Shown: one piece after another, positions 55,862 to 63,839 of the stretch | How positions within the stretch are numbered: position 1 is the first letter of the stretch | How the letters are laid out: each line of letters begins with the position of its first letter | Assembly: GCF_002285795.1 (NCBI RefSeq) | Contig: NZ_CP022961.1 | Coordinates: forward strand, 806,001-870,000 | Length of the DNA: 64,000 bases | Direction: 5' to 3' | Origin: Plantactinospora sp. KBS50 | GTDB lineage: Bacteria; Actinomycetota; Actinomycetes; Mycobacteriales; Micromonosporaceae | Translations under genes and position numbers: made by a program | Notes under the pieces: model-generated | Told to the model about the DNA's origin: nothing | Seen by the model: only the letters and a program-made list of their open reading frames with translations | Databases searched by the model: none

Positions 55862-55963
55862 GTATTCAGCCAGTTCTCAGCAATATCCGGATGATGGAGG
55901 GGTACCGGGAGTGTTGTAGCGGTTGGCGGGCCGGAGTTCGGTCCGCGCACCGAAGGAGTGATC

Positions 55964-56845
55964 GTGCACAGCCACCGAAACGGTCTCAAAACGGCCGCTT
56001 TGCTCGGCCTGCTCACCGCCCTGATCCTCGGCGTCGGATACTGGTTCGGCGGTAGCGCCGGCCTGATCATCGCCGTGCTCATTTCGCTGGTCATGAACGG
56101 CGTGACCTACTTCTTCTCCGACAAGCTGGCGCTGCGCTCGATGCGCGCACAGCCCGTCAGCGAGGCGGAGTTCCCCGCGCTGTACCAGATGGTGCGGGAA
56201 CTGGCGACGGCGGCGAACCAGCCGATGCCCCGGCTGTACGTCAGTCCGACGATGCAGCCGAACGCCTTCGCCACCGGCCGCAACCCGGCCAACGCGGCGG
56301 TCTGCGTGACCCAGGGCATCACCAGGATCCTCGACTACCGCGAGCTGCGTGGTGTCATCGGGCACGAGCTGTCGCACGTCTACAACCGGGACATCCTGAT
56401 CTCCAGCGTGGCCGCCGGGCTGGCCGGGATCATCACCGCGCTCGCCCAGCTCATGTGGTTCATCCCGCTGGGCGGCGGGGACGACGAGGACTCGCCGAAC
56501 CCGGCCGTGCTGCTGGCCATGCTGATCCTGGGTCCGATCGCGGCGACCATCATCCAGCTCGCGATCAGCCGGAGCCGGGAGTACCAGGCGGATGCCTCCG
56601 GGGCCGCGCTGACCCGCGACCCGATGGCGCTGGCCAGTGCCCTGCGCAAGATCCACATGGGTACCCAGCAACTGCCGCTGCCGGCCGATCGCCAGCTCAC
56701 CAGCACGGCGCACCTGATGATCGACAACCCGTTCCGGGGTGGCGGCCTCAGCGCGCTGTTCTCCACCCACCCGCCCATGGAGGAGCGGGTGCGGCGGCTG
56801 GAGGCCCTGGCCGGCAACTCGGGTCCGATCCAGTACATGCACTGA
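55964..56845 (+). CDS. htpX: HtpX-type membrane zinc metalloprotease
   Basis: 293 residues, four membrane segments. The zinc motif HELSH starts at His134, the third ligand Glu206 is in REYQADASGA. HtpX degrades damaged membrane proteins with FtsH. The GTG at 55964 is 6 bases after AAGGAG; the GTG at 55958 is part of that site. The end of the gene faces yajQ across two strong hairpins. Confidence 0.95.
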   Translation: MHSHRNGLKTAALLGLLTALILGVGYWFGGSAGLIIAVLISLVMNGVTYFFSDKLALRSMRAQPVSEAEFPALYQMVRELATAANQPMPRLYVSPTMQPNAFATGRNPANAAVCVTQGITRILDYRELRGVIGHELSHVYNRDILISSVAAGLAGIITALAQLMWFIPLGGGDDEDSPNPAVLLAMLILGPIAATIIQLAISRSREYQADASGAALTRDPMALASALRKIHMGTQQLPLPADRQLTSTAHLMIDNPFRGGGLSALFSTHPPMEERVRRLEALAGNSGPIQYMH

Positions 56846-56989: not shown

Positions 56990-57484
56990 CTAGCGGTAGT
57001 TGGTGAACTGGAGCGCCACGCCGAAGTCGGCGGACTTGAGCAGCGCGATGACGGCCTGGAGGTCGTCCCGCTTCTTGCCGGTGACCCGGAGCTGGTCGCC
57101 CTGGATCTGGGCCTGCACGCCCTTCGGGCCCTCGTCCCGGATCTTCTTGCTGATCGCCTTGGCCTTGTCGGCGGCGATGCCCTGGAGGACCTTGCAGTCG
57201 ATCCGGTAGACCTTGCCGGACTGCCGGGGCTCCCCGCAGTCCAGCGACTTGAGCGAGATGTTGCGCTTGACGACCTTCTCCTTGAAGACGTCCAACGCCG
57301 CCTTGGTGCGCTCCTCCGTCTCCGCCTGGAGGGTGATCGCCTCCTCCCCGGCCCAGGAGATCTCCGCTCCGGTTCCGCGGAAGTCGAAACGCGAACCAAG
57401 CTCCTTCTCCGCTTGCCGCAGGGCGTTGTCCATCTCCTGCCGGTCGACCTTGCTCACGATGTCGAACGACGGGTTCGCTGCCAT
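56990..57484 (-). CDS. yajQ: YajQ-family cyclic-di-GMP-binding / nucleotide-binding protein
   Basis: 164 residues, the family length. It starts with the hallmark [18 protein letters not shown] and ends in [12 protein letters not shown], with [12 protein letters not shown] and [20 protein letters not shown] between. YajQ proteins have two ferredoxin-like domains; some bind cyclic-di-GMP. ATG 57484 has AGGAG seven bases upstream. It is 1.8 kb from a GGDEF-EAL protein, so a signalling link is conceivable but not shown. Confidence 0.95.
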
Positions 57485-57646
57485 GATCATGCTCCTGAGG
57501 TATGGATGGTTCGGTCCGGTCTCCGGCCACCGGCGCAACCGGCGCCGCGCCCGGGAGCCCGACCCCGGTCTGACCCGGTTTCCGGCCTGCCGGCCGCTGG
57601 TGTCCGATGCCGCCCGAGGTCGGCACATCCTGCCGACGGTACCCGG

Positions 57647-57677
57647 TTGCGCCGGCACCGGGGACAACCGCTATCCT
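57647..57677 (+). promoter_or_regulatory. Candidate promoter of tRNA-Tyr
   Basis: TTGCGC (57647-57652) and TATCCT (57672-57677) with 19-base spacing lie 38 bases before the tRNA. The spacing is slightly long. Confidence 0.45.
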
Positions 57678-57715: not shown

Positions 57716-57796
57716 GGCGGGTTGCCCGAGCGGCCAATGGGAGCGGACTGTAAATCCGTCGCGAAAGCTACAGAGGTTCGAATCCTCTACCCGCCA
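57716..57796 (+). tRNA. tRNA-Tyr (anticodon GTA)
   Basis: An 81-base class II tRNA. The acceptor stem GGCGGGT/ACCCGCC closes at 57716-57722 and 57789-57795, with A as discriminator. The anticodon GTA is at 57750-57752. The long variable arm and the T-arm GTTCGAATC are in place. The 3' CCA is not encoded. Confidence 0.97.
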
Positions 57797-58459: not shown

Positions 58460-58837
58460 TCAGCCGTGCCGGGTGGTCGGGTCCTGGCGGAGCCGGTCGA
58501 GAAAGTCGGCGCAGGCGTCGGCTTCGGTGGGAAAAACCCGAAGGGCGGTCTTGCTGCTGGAGGCCGTGTAGTAGACCTCCCAGCCGGCCGGTACGTGATC
58601 GATCACGTAGCAGTGACCGATGCCCTCGCCGCCGTACAGCCGGTAGCAGTCGGGCCGGAAGCCCTCCTGGGGTAGCAGTGTCTCCAAGTCGGCGCGCGTC
58701 CTGGCGTCCCGATCCACCATGCCGGTCATCATGACGGGTGAGCCGTCGCTGCGCTGGGCGGCCACTCCGGCCATTTTTACGACGCCCGATTTTTCCCCAA
58801 AGAAGATCTTGCCCTGATATGCCAGAGGTGAAGGCAT
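58460..58837 (-). CDS. Orphan small protein, immunity-protein-like
   Basis: Up to 125 residues. The conserved-looking part begins near residue 41 (VDRDARTRADLETLLPQEGF) and runs through CYRLYGGEGIGHCYVIDHV, WEVYYTASSSKTALRVF and TEADACADFLDRLRQD. That layout, an Arg/Asp-rich helix, a GG turn, a WxVYY strand and a terminal helix with E-A-C, recalls small immunity proteins found beside polymorphic toxins; I state this from memory of the pattern, not a search. The first 40 residues are encoded by low-GC DNA and may not be translated; ATGs at 58777 or 58723-58735 are alternative starts. Confidence 0.65.
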   Translation of the reverse strand: MPSPLAYQGKIFFGEKSGVVKMAGVAAQRSDGSPVMMTGMVDRDARTRADLETLLPQEGFRPDCYRLYGGEGIGHCYVIDHVPAGWEVYYTASSSKTALRVFPTEADACADFLDRLRQDPTTRHG

Positions 58838-58925: not shown

Positions 58926-59093
58926 GTAATGGGGCCGCCTGGGGGATGTCCTGCCTGCCAAACGGGCGGATCTGTCCGCTGGGACAGTGAACAGGGCCCG
59001 CTCCGGCTTTGCCGCTGCTTTCCACTGTGGCACCATCATGGAACCTCCACCGTTGTATCAACCCCTCGCTCAGCTCGTTGATAGGAGCCATCG

Positions 59094-59237
59094 ATGTGTA
59101 CTCGACGGCTTGGCCGGTTCATCGGCGTCGCCATGACGCTCACGGCAATGGTCGCGTTGGCGGCTTTTGTCGTTGGCAGTCCCCAACTGCTCGGGGTCGA
59201 CTGGACCGCGAGCTTCGGAACCCTGCTGATTCCGTAA
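59094..59237 (+). CDS. 47-residue single-span membrane peptide upstream of the GGDEF-EAL gene
   Basis: ATG at 59094 with an excellent ribosome site (AGGAG at 59083-59087, 6-base spacing) opens a 47-codon frame ending TAA. The peptide starts MCTRRLGRF, has one hydrophobic span at about residues 10-28 (IGVAMTLTAMVALAAFVV), and ends QLLGVDWTASFGTLLIP outside or in the membrane. The basic N-terminus points inward. The cyclic-di-GMP gene begins 57 bases later on the same strand. I do not recognise the peptide; a membrane partner or regulator of that protein is inference. Confidence 0.6.
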   Translation: MCTRRLGRFIGVAMTLTAMVALAAFVVGSPQLLGVDWTASFGTLLIP

Positions 59238-59294: not shown

Positions 59295-61847
59295 ATGCGA
59301 TCCCGTAAACTGCCGGGGCGAAACTCGGAGCGGGCCTGGCTGATCACGGGACCGCTGGCGGCCTTGGCCGTGCTGTCCTGTGTTCTGCTCGGTGTGCTCG
59401 GCTCCAACCGGTCGGGCTGGTGGAACGACGCCGCGCCGTTCGCACGGATGGTGCTCTTCGTCGCGCTGCTGGCCGCCCTCGTGCTGGCCAGCATCCCGAC
59501 GCTGCAGCTGGTGGTCCGCCGGCAGGGCATGACGGTGTCGATCACCGAGATCCCGATCGTGCTCGCCCTGCACTATCTGCCGCCGCTGCTCGTGGTGCTC
59601 CTGGTCACGTTCGCGACCCTGATGATCCAGGTTCGTCGGCGGATGAGTCGGGTGAAGCTGTGGTTCAACGTCGCCAACTCGGCGGCGGCGATCTCGCTGG
59701 CCAGCCTCGTTCTCGCCCAGTTGCCGGCGGACGCGGGAGTCGGTCCGGTGACCTGGGCGGTCCTGTGCGTCGCACTGGCCGTCTACACCCTGGTGACCGT
59801 GTCGGCCGTGAGCGGCGTGATCGGTCTGCTCCAGGGCTGGCAGGCCGGCCGCGAGGTGCTCGGAACGGCCCGGCTCGTCCTGGTCACGCTGGGTCTCAAC
59901 ACGGCCGTCGGCCTGGTGATCCTGCTCGCCCTGGACGCGACCTGGTGGTCACTGCTGCCGCTCACGGCGCTCGCCGCCGCACTGGCACTGGTCTACCGCT
60001 CGTACGCGACCTCGCTGCGCCAGCACCGGATGCTCGAGGACATGTACGAGCTGACCCGAGCCATGACGGAGAGTGGCCAGGACGGCACGCTGCCGGACGC
60101 GATGCTGGGTCGGGTCCGGGCGCTCATGCAGGCCGAGTACGCGACGCTGTGGCTGCCGGCCCAGGGCCGGCACCCGGAGGTGCTGCTCTCGGCCCGGGTG
60201 GACGACTCCGGGCTGCTGGACGTGGCACCGATCCCGGCGGCCGTGCGTAAACGGGCCATCCAGGAACGCCGCACGCTCGCCATCGGCAGTCGGCTGGAGG
60301 GCGGAGACCGGCTCCGGACGATGCTGCACGGCACCGACGTCAAGGACGCGCTCGTCGTACCGTTGCGGTCCGGCTCGGCCATGATCGGCACGCTCGAGGT
60401 GGTGAACCGGCTCAGCGACGTCGGGCACTTCCGCCCCGGCGACGTACCGGTCTTCGAGACGGTGGCCGCGCACACCGCCGTGGCCCTGGAGAACTCCCGG
60501 CTGGTCGACCGGCTGCGCTTCGACGCGTACCACGACGGGCTGACCAAGCTGCCGAACCGGCGGCGGATGACCGCGGCGCTCGGCGAGGCCGTGCAGATCC
60601 GGGCCCCCGACGAGGTCGTGGCAATCCTGCTTTTCGACGTGGATGACCTGCGCCGGGTCAACGAGACGCTCGGGCACGCGGCCGGCGATCAGGTGCTGGT
60701 CGAGGTCGCCGAGCGGCTGCGCAGATCCGCCCCGTCGTCGTCGCTCATCGGGCGGATCGGCGGCGACGAGTTCGTGGTCCTGCTGCGGCTCGACGACGCC
60801 GACGCCGCGCTCGACCTGGCCGCGCGGCTGCGCGAACAGATCCGCGACAAGATGGTGTTCGGCGAACTGACCCTGGACGTGGACACCGTGGTCGGGGTGG
60901 CGCTGCACCCGGACCACGGCGGCGACGCGCACACGCTGCTCCAACGGGTCGACCTGGCCGCAACGGCGGCCAAGGCGGTACCCGGCGGCATCCAGTTGTT
61001 CAGTCCGATGCTCGAATCCCGCTCGCTGCACCGGCTCAGCCTGGCCACCGACCTGCGCCGCGCCCTGGACCAGGGCGAGTTGGAGGTCTACTTCCAGCCG
61101 AAGGTGACGCTGCACGACCGGCGGCTCGTGGGCGTGGAGTGCCTGGCCCGCTGGGAGCACCCGGCGCACGGCGCGGTGGCGCCGGAGGACTTCGTCGCGG
61201 TGGCCGAACACACCGGCCAACTCGGCCGGCTCACCGAGGTGGTGCTCCGGGAGGGCCTGCGACGCAGTCGTGACTGGCCGGACCAGCAGCAGCCGCTCAA
61301 CATCGCGGTCAACCTGTCGGCCCGGTCGCTGGCCGACCCGCACTTTCCGGCCCTGGTGGACGGCCTGCTGGCCGAGTACGGCGTACCCGCCGAACGGCTC
61401 ACGCTGGAGATCCGCGAGTCGGGCGTGCTGGACGGCACGGACCGGCCGGTGCCGATCCTGCGCCGGTTGCGCGAGATCGGGGTACGGCTCTCCGTCGACG
61501 ACTTCGGCACCGGCTACGCCTCACTGCTGTACCTGCGCCGGCTTCCGGTGCACGAGGTGAAGGTCGACCGGTCCTTCGTGCAGGGCATGGCGACCGACCC
61601 GGTCGACCTGGCCATCGTGAACGCCGTGGTGACGCTGTCCCAGCAGTTCGGCCTGGCCGTGGTCGCGGAGGGCGTGGAGAGCGAACTGACGCTCGAACTG
61701 CTCCAGGACATCGGCTGCCAGATCGCCCAGGGCTTCCTGTTCAGCCGGCCGCTGCCGTACGAGCGGCTGGCCGCCTGGGTGGACGCGCAGTCCGAGCCGG
61801 AACCGCTGACCGCCGCGGACGTCCGGAGGCTGCGGGCGGTGCCCTGA
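59295..61847 (+). CDS. Membrane-anchored GAF-GGDEF-EAL protein (cyclic-di-GMP turnover)
   Basis: 850 residues. About six to seven membrane segments fill residues 15-235, then a GAF-type sensor (about 255-405), a GGDEF domain with intact GGDEF at 489-493, and an EAL domain. In the EAL domain the signature reads ECLARW (Glu615, Cys616), but DDFGTGY (735-741), the Lys in VKVDRSF and the Glu in VAEGVES are kept, so both synthesis and breakdown of cyclic-di-GMP may be possible. GGGAGG precedes the ATG. No terminator is evident before tRNA-Thr. Confidence 0.95.
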   Translation: MRSRKLPGRNSERAWLITGPLAALAVLSCVLLGVLGSNRSGWWNDAAPFARMVLFVALLAALVLASIPTLQLVVRRQGMTVSITEIPIVLALHYLPPLLVVLLVTFATLMIQVRRRMSRVKLWFNVANSAAAISLASLVLAQLPADAGVGPVTWAVLCVALAVYTLVTVSAVSGVIGLLQGWQAGREVLGTARLVLVTLGLNTAVGLVILLALDATWWSLLPLTALAAALALVYRSYATSLRQHRMLEDMYELTRAMTESGQDGTLPDAMLGRVRALMQAEYATLWLPAQGRHPEVLLSARVDDSGLLDVAPIPAAVRKRAIQERRTLAIGSRLEGGDRLRTMLHGTDVKDALVVPLRSGSAMIGTLEVVNRLSDVGHFRPGDVPVFETVAAHTAVALENSRLVDRLRFDAYHDGLTKLPNRRRMTAALGEAVQIRAPDEVVAILLFDVDDLRRVNETLGHAAGDQVLVEVAERLRRSAPSSSLIGRIGGDEFVVLLRLDDADAALDLAARLREQIRDKMVFGELTLDVDTVVGVALHPDHGGDAHTLLQRVDLAATAAKAVPGGIQLFSPMLESRSLHRLSLATDLRRALDQGELEVYFQPKVTLHDRRLVGVECLARWEHPAHGAVAPEDFVAVAEHTGQLGRLTEVVLREGLRRSRDWPDQQQPLNIAVNLSARSLADPHFPALVDGLLAEYGVPAERLTLEIRESGVLDGTDRPVPILRRLREIGVRLSVDDFGTGYASLLYLRRLPVHEVKVDRSFVQGMATDPVDLAIVNAVVTLSQQFGLAVVAEGVESELTLELLQDIGCQIAQGFLFSRPLPYERLAAWVDAQSEPEPLTAADVRRLRAVP

Positions 61848-62008: not shown

Positions 62009-62081
62009 GCCCCCTTAGCTCAGTCGGCAGAGCGTCTCCATGGTAAGGAGAAGGTCTACGGTTCGATTCCGTAAGGGGGCT
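62009..62081 (+). tRNA. tRNA-Thr (anticodon GGT)
   Basis: A 73-base tRNA with acceptor GCCCCCT/AGGGGGC, anticodon loop ATGGTAA (anticodon GGT) and T-arm GTTCGATTC. Discriminator T; no encoded CCA. tRNA-Met follows 26 bases later and probably shares its transcript. Confidence 0.97.
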
Positions 62082-62107
62082 CAGAGGGTTCAGCTGGACC
62101 CGTTCAC

Positions 62108-62180
62108 GGCGGTGTAGCTCAGTTGGCAGAGCAAGCGGCTCATAATCGCTGTGTCGCCGGTTCAAGTCCGGCCACCGCTA
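62108..62180 (+). tRNA. tRNA-Met, elongator (anticodon CAT)
   Basis: A 73-base tRNA with acceptor GGCGGTG/CACCGCT (first pair G-T wobble), anticodon loop CTCATAA and T-arm GTTCAAGTC. The anticodon stem AGCGG/TCGCT lacks the three G-C pairs of initiator tRNA, so elongator Met is preferred over initiator. Confidence 0.93.
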
Positions 62181-62268
62181 CTCTCGGGCGCCGGGCCGAT
62201 CCCGGCGAACACACCGTTCGGACCCTGGTCCGTTCGGCCCGATGCGAGGGGCGCCACAGGCGCCCACT

Positions 62269-63766: not shown

Positions 63767-63839
<73 letters not shown>

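Follow-up and report, generated by a model that had tools for sequence, protein, structure and literature searches.

Directly in front of a gene for a cyclic-di-GMP enzyme in Plantactinospora sp. KBS50 lies an open reading frame of only 47 codons, which raises the question of whether so short a frame is a gene and, if so, what its product does for its neighbor. We analyzed a stretch of 64,000 nucleotides (the window) in which the small ORF, MCTRRLGRFIGVAMTLTAMVALAAFVVGSPQLLGVDWTASFGTLLIP, occupies 59094..59237 of the plus strand, from the ATG at 59094 to a TAA stop codon ending at 59237. The ribosome binding site AGGAG (59083..59087, plus strand) is separated from the start codon by a 6 nt spacer. 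The encoded peptide has a basic N-terminus (CTRRLGR), a single hydrophobic stretch resembling a signal peptide or membrane span (residues 10-27; 59121..59174, plus strand) and a Trp motif, G34-V35-D36-W37-T38 (59193..59207, plus strand). After a gap of 57 nt follows the ATG (59295) of the gene for an 850-amino-acid membrane GAF-GGDEF-EAL protein (59295..61847, plus strand), the proposed receptor and c-di-GMP enzyme, which matches PF01590, PF00990, and PF00563 above their Pfam cut-offs. The ribosome site, basic start, single hydrophobic stretch, and stop codon 57 bases before the enzyme gene had all been described in an earlier sequence-only reading of this DNA and are confirmed from the sequence. 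Pfam assigned no family to the window peptide (P0001), NCBIfam returned only SecF models at no more than 15.7 bits against cut-offs of at least 420, and PADLOC gave no match. The window genome has no further copy of the 47-codon peptide at a meaningful E-value.

The peptide/enzyme pair is preceded by a divergent ORF of 125 amino acids (58460-58837, minus strand) and, further 5′, by a minus-strand gene (56990-57667) whose product is presumably YajQ-like and a plus-strand gene (55958-56845) that we take to encode an HtpX-type protease. The window also contains tRNA-Tyr at 57716, tRNA-Thr and tRNA-Met at 62009-62181, and tRNA-Trp at 63767. Approximately 50 to 65 nt 5′ of the small ORF is a promoter-like sequence, TTTGCC-N17-CACCAT (59008-59036, plus strand), overlapping the block TGTGGCACCATCATGGAA (59026-59043, plus strand), which is conserved across family loci. 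The best match to TGTGGCACSATCRTGGAA reached at least 14 of 18 positions in 93 of 119 loci and all 18 in 54, and the best match in shuffled sequence was 13. Conservation of the TTTGCC half is weak, and a sigma-70 scan of the window reported no promoter at 59008-59043; the block may nevertheless represent −35 and −10 elements. Its position about 50 to 65 bases 5′ in most family loci fits a transcript that begins with the small ORF.

To find orthologs in the bacterial family to which the window belongs, the peptide alone proved a weak query: it gave hits at E≤0.05 in 43 of 354 family genomes, counting the window genome, many of them inside long unrelated frames. It recovered few orthologs in a related genus, and all those that could be oriented lay 5′ of the same enzyme gene. 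The receptor gene was therefore used as the anchor, and its N-terminal membrane domain was matched in 351 of the 354 genomes. From these 351 genomes we took a nonrandom sample of 120 orthologous loci, one per genome, made up of the best-scoring matches and genus representatives. A small ORF with a ribosome site was present 5′ of the GAF-GGDEF-EAL gene in 119 of the 120, 116 being identified by rule and three, which have no hydrophobic segment, by hand (L110, L112, and L117); L121 was the sole locus where none was found. Ribosome sites of the ACAGGAG type recurred in these orthologs. A small ORF was likewise found in 80 of 80 named loci from Micromonospora, Salinispora, Plantactinospora, Phytohabitans, Actinoplanes, and others, a set that was filtered for a Trp and overlaps in species with the 120. 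A strict rule, which required a GGAG ribosome site, a basic N-terminus, a hydrophobic segment, and a stop codon near the gene, was passed by 111 of the 120 loci, 109 of them also having an acidic-Trp motif. It was passed by 13 of 2400 upstream sequences generated by first-order Markov resampling (two with the acidic-Trp motif), by 0 of 120 reverse strands, and by 0 of 116 in-gene positions. The pooled dN/dS of the small ORF over 18 close pairs was 0.40, a ratio biased downward by the preselection of pairs at more than 70% amino acid identity.

The 47-codon frame is a real gene. Loss of the frame among relatives, which the sequence-only reading named as the outcome that would count against it, is not what the family loci show, and the partnership with the next gene that it proposed is strongly supported by the conserved gene order. 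Because the peptide and enzyme frames agree in the window, stop-codon read-through fusing the two products was considered and rejected, the frames agreeing in 35 of 119 loci, approximately the chance level. At one locus, G028:C53:343518-344223, the match to the receptor membrane domain is split into two adjoining parts, suggestive of a frameshift or an assembly error.

The family peptides share a layout of hydrophobic segment, linker of widely varying length, and Trp-centered motif. A basic N-terminus and hydrophobic segment occur in 116 of 119 peptides, L110, L112, and L117 being the exceptions, and an acidic residue stands one to four positions before a Trp in 115. The Trp column is invariant in both peptide alignments, A3 with 32 rows and A4 with 39 rows, and a Trp is among the last two residues in 71 of the 119 peptides. 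Over 117 scored peptides, the usual residues are Asp, Gly, or Glu at W-3; Phe, Val, Ile, or Tyr at W-2; Glu, Asp, Val, or Ile at W-1; and Gly, Thr, or Asn at W+1. At least 18 of the 119 peptides contain two or more identical motif copies, for example three of DHEWH in L106 and four AGDIVWQ-like units in L134. Such copies are alike within one genome and unlike across genomes. Among 28 hand-chosen close pairs, the signal region was 81% identical, the motif 74%, and the linker 56%, and three of the pairs differ in copy number, leaving the last Trp unaligned. The most widely kept part of the peptide is the short motif around the Trp rather than the membrane span.

How short the gene can be becomes apparent at the second enzyme of the same type in the window genome (G000:C1:6634564; GGDEF and EAL by Pfam), which has orthologs in 84 of the 121 family genomes searched. 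Upstream of this paralog, outside the window, is an ORF of only seven codons, MRGSSWE (G000:C1:6634474-6634497), with the ribosome site GAAGGAG. All 30 paralog loci inspected (L367-L396), the best-scoring of the 84 matched genomes and including some close relatives that share one peptide, have an ORF that is precisely seven codons long and whose sixth codon encodes Trp, in the pattern MRxx(D/E)Wx; Arg is at codon 2 in 29 and Asp or Glu at codon 5 in 27. Several codons of these ORFs vary synonymously. None of the 30 reverse strands and 2 of 6000 resampled sequences have an ORF of this position and length, and a looser ribosome-site rule was passed by 27 of the 30 loci and by 68 of 1200 resampled regions. 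Seven-codon ORFs with a Trp imply that the motif alone, without span or linker, can be an entire gene. The earlier description of a membrane peptide thus holds for the window, where the span is present, but does not extend to the paralog and to other lineages, where the span is absent and the Trp motif persists.

Genomes sampled at three ranks were searched with a profile of the membrane domain (alignment A1), which matched 141 of 200 for the order, 46 of 246 for the class, and 30 of 149 for the phylum; the samples partly overlap. Of the 68 outside loci, three were dropped because their upstream sequence was too short. The 65 usable loci are best-scoring matches, include the paralog of the window genome, and in some genomes number more than one; a Trp-terminal or Trp-repeat ORF occurs in 42 of them and a tandem Trp repeat in 34, compared with 156 and 8, respectively, of 1300 Markov-resampled controls. 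No Trp ORF was found in the other 23 by this rule, which is blind to Trp-less repeats. The carriers of the motif are diverse. Some are tiny leaderless ORFs built from tandem units 5′ of the sensor gene, as in L240 (MNERGAKWARGAKWARGAKWARGAKWARGAKWA) and L217 (MSARTLDGGSWTFADGGSWTFADGGSWTFTDGGSWT), five copies of RGAKWA being an example of such an array in Actinomycetota outside the family, and a form with a signal peptide carries three copies of GASWN in L204. Long partners in other lineages are proteins with Trp-repeat tails of up to 22 GAGWR copies. In a phylum sample inspected by eye, without a shuffle control, 19 of 28 loci had a Trp-repeat or Trp-rich ORF, 18 of these ORFs being at least 337 residues long.

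Subtilase-type ORFs with C-terminal tandem Trp pentapeptides lie 5′ of the sensor gene in distant Actinomycetota (L193, L195, L202, L207-L209, and L330-L357). Peptidase_S8 (PF00082) is present in both larger carriers that were scanned, L207 and L193. Among eight fetched loci, a signal peptide of the subtilase carrier was recognized by eye in three (L358, L359, and L365); for the remaining five, the start was ambiguous or no subtilase was found. Arrays with Leu in place of Trp occupy the same place before the receptor in two loci, consisting of a signal peptide and 18 copies of GASLT (L188) or seven copies of GGSLN (L237). The L188 carrier matches the pentapeptide repeat family PF00805.

The output domains of the receptors were read to determine which part of the enzyme the partner accompanies. 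A motif scan of the 80 named receptors found GGDEF-like letters in 76 and EAL-like letters in 78, having missed three receptors that Pfam recognizes. The output was initially unreadable, the sequence being too short, in 40 of the 68 outside loci, before ten were extended to full length. All ten full-length receptors from lineages with leaderless or short peptides are GGDEF-EAL proteins by Pfam, as are all nine further outside receptors scanned; these 19 lie outside or beside the family. Ten receptors of the phylum sample are without GGDEF-like letters: nine are histidine kinases (HisKA and HATPase_c), and the tenth has PAS domains in its readable part. Pfam thus read the output of 30 nonfamily receptors, i.e., the 19 GGDEF-EAL proteins, the paralog (L367), the nine kinases, and the one PAS protein. 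A Trp-repeat or Trp-rich ORF lies directly 5′ of seven of the nine kinases (L344, L346, L347, L349, L353, L355, and L357), and none was found directly 5′ of L333 and L350. Since the partner also occurs with kinases that bear this sensor, it accompanies the sensor domain rather than c-di-GMP chemistry. The sequence-only reading had named a c-di-GMP protein as the partner; the pairing with the GGDEF-EAL gene is borne out, but the link is to the sensor domain, which histidine kinases also carry. That the partner follows the sensor whatever the output is as expected of a ligand.

What kind of sensor this is was addressed with two AlphaFold models. The first fused the peptide, the spacer, and the membrane domain, reading stop codons as Gly, with an alignment of 32 rows; the second was the corresponding L079 fusion, with 39 rows, most of them shared with the first. 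The membrane domain of the first model was confident and the linker poorly resolved; a helix at residues 6-24 of the small peptide overlaps the region of the hydrophobic segment. The PDB sequence search with the sensor gave no match, and the best Foldseek E-value for the sensor model was only 3e-3. VIA-align of the first model gave Z values of 10.8-13.7 for the first 21 rows, all of them ECF S components or NikM/CbiM, with the next row at 7.2, and the match to the S-component fold was repeated with the L079 model. The sensor is accordingly predicted to have the six-helix ECF S-component fold (receptor residues 46-216; 59430..59942, plus strand).

In NikM/CbiM, the N-terminus of the protein itself plugs the substrate pocket. 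Residue 1 of NikM/CbiM aligns with motif position W-2 in both fusion models (model residue 35, and 64 in L079). Model confidence is uneven but goes up at this place: residues 34-39 of the first model are flanked by stretches with pLDDT below 50, and in the L079 model values under 50 extend over residues 22-61 and end at residue 62, immediately before D63-F-D-W66. The ten-residue blocks holding the motif have mean pLDDT values of 51 and 61. Because the fusion constructs force proximity and the alignments overlap, the placement of the motif in a NikM/CbiM-like pocket is a lead rather than a demonstration of binding.

Taken with the pairing and the motif, the models favor a reading in which the product of the small ORF, a peptide with a Trp motif, is probably the cognate ligand of the S-component-like sensor encoded by the following gene and would have a regulatory role. 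The Trp motif would bind in the sensor pocket, and the bound motif would switch the attached output, i.e., synthesis or breakdown of c-di-GMP in the window and a histidine kinase in other lineages. In the window the motif is part of a short precursor that begins with an export or membrane segment, and it would be released from this precursor; in other lineages motifs of this type are carried in tandem arrays, at the ends of subtilase-type proteins, or as nothing more than a heptapeptide.

The main rival to this ligand-receptor reading is a cis-acting leader peptide, in which the ORF would have a cis effect alone, the nascent chain or the ribosome near the stop codon tuning translation of the downstream gene. 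The location of the ORF directly 5′ of the enzyme gene would fit such control, as would a Trp at the last or next-to-last residue in 71 of 119 family peptides, and the fixed length of the heptapeptide ORFs by the paralog speaks somewhat for it. It is difficult to reconcile, however, with up to 22 identical motif copies on a subtilase, with the Trp-less GASLT and GGSLN arrays, and with motif residues that differ across genomes. Attenuation or an Rfam element also seems unlikely: seven of eight leader RNAs fold no better than shuffled sequences, the exception being L055 (z −3.07), and the leader region has no Rfam match. We regard control by a leader peptide as unlikely.

Somewhat more doubtful is that the peptide is a permanent membrane part of the enzyme, an anchored subunit whose span does the work. 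The basic N-terminus and hydrophobic segment of 116 of 119 family peptides would suit a subunit, as would the signal region being the most conserved part in the 28 chosen close pairs (81%, versus 74% for the motif and 56% for the linker). The span-less, motif-only forms in L110, L112, and L117, in other families, and at the paralog argue against it, as does the highly variable linker length.

For a ligand, the side of the membrane on which the pocket opens matters. When the loops are delimited by the model, positive charges fall on the N-terminus, L1, L3, L5, and C-terminus in each of the three groups examined. Since the catalytic part must be cytosolic, these charges suggest that pocket loops L1, L3, and L5 face the cytosol, which would make the fold inverted with respect to the transporters. 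A cytosolic pocket suits the leaderless peptides and heptapeptides. It would conflict with the signal-peptide and subtilase forms, which should be exported, unless these return to the cytosol or are caught on their way out, or unless the inferred topology is wrong. Phr peptides are re-imported. A cytosol-facing pocket that captures the Trp tail of unexported precursors, so reporting secretion capacity, would agree with the predicted loop orientation and with the export signals on many carriers, but is improbable given leaderless and seven-residue forms that leave nothing to export.

Over 80 loci, motif distance correlated with sensor distance given catalytic-domain distance (partial r 0.45, permutation p 0.0005), a covariation that is not specific to the sensor, as GAF distances gave 0.36 and the first 20 residues of the peptide 0.39. 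In lineages whose motif is basic ([RK]W, 15 sequences), sensor columns 73, 94, and 132 are acidic; of a hand-picked set bearing other motifs, 81% also have the acidic residue at column 132, but the one at column 94 is not shared. A candidate partner of the W-1 residue is R115 in loop L3 (59637..59639, plus strand). Lys or Arg at 115 stands opposite 56 of 61 peptides with an acidic W-1 versus 14 of 56 others (Fisher p 4e-14 for a column chosen post hoc), and in the named set 41 of 41 acidic peptides go with R115. Tree-corrected independent pairs gave no significant association between R115 and W-1, the pairs being too few, although the opposite direction almost never occurs. Lys or Arg at 128 showed no association with an acidic W-1 (p 0.85). 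W-2 covaries with columns 195 and 141 (z 6.0 and 4.7, without tree correction).

Several known systems resemble parts of this arrangement. RRNPP systems (Phr/Rap and SHP/Rgg) likewise have precursors of approximately 40 to 70 residues in which an export segment at the N-terminus is followed by a linker of variable length and a short linear motif at or close to the C-terminus, encoded adjacent to the gene of the presumed receptor. Their receptors are cytosolic and of the TPR type, whereas here the sensor is a membrane protein with a predicted S-component-like fold and a GGDEF-EAL or kinase output, and the motif is also found in leaderless heptapeptide genes and on the tails of subtilases. AgrD-AgrC similarly places a small peptide gene beside a polytopic membrane sensor, which in some lineages here is also a histidine kinase, but both the sensor fold and the carriers differ.

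On the receptor side, the predicted fold and the modeled place of the motif at the N-terminal plug recall ECF S components and NikM/CbiM (PDB 4m58, 4m5b, and 5x3x), from which the present sensors differ in being fused to signaling domains and, as the loop charges suggest, in being inverted. The distant sensor homologs L346 and L347 match MASE9 (PF20972) at 25.8 and 26.6 bits, above the cut-off of 24.3, whereas the sensor of the window matches no Pfam family; kinship is therefore likely, but the domain of the window is not a recognized member. The subtilases (PF00082) with Trp pentapeptide tails lie 5′ of the same type of sensor and carry the same kind of motif, although the window peptide has no protease domain and a single motif copy. 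Pentapeptide repeat proteins (PF00805) differ in that the repeat periods here range from five to nine residues, and the window peptide and three tested family peptides do not match that family.

A literature search, mainly outside subscription journals and without MASE9 by name, found no publication on the peptide-sensor pairing, and the words "peptide" and "small protein" are absent from the matched passages of a paper on Streptomyces GGDEF/EAL proteins (PMC6205966). The Trp micropeptides apparently constitute a large, undescribed class of very short bacterial proteins, some of only seven amino acids. Conserved seven-codon genes that can be recovered through gene order have a bearing on genome annotation.

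To our knowledge, the ligands sensed by actinomycete GGDEF-EAL proteins are mostly unknown. The pairing described here offers a candidate ligand encoded next door, of synthesizable size, with a predicted binding place and swappable natural variants, and it extends to histidine kinases. If the ligand reading is true, this would be peptide-to-membrane-sensor signaling, a known kind, with a new class of peptide, three unusual carriers including seven-codon genes, a new type of sensor, and two outputs. Possibly, Trp-motif peptide signals act phylum-wide on both c-di-GMP enzymes and histidine kinases through a receptor that is related to MASE9 and has an inverted S-component-like fold, with subtilase tails, exported precursors, and micro-ORFs as carriers, and the drift of the motif with the receptor may then provide for species-specific signaling in actinomycetes.
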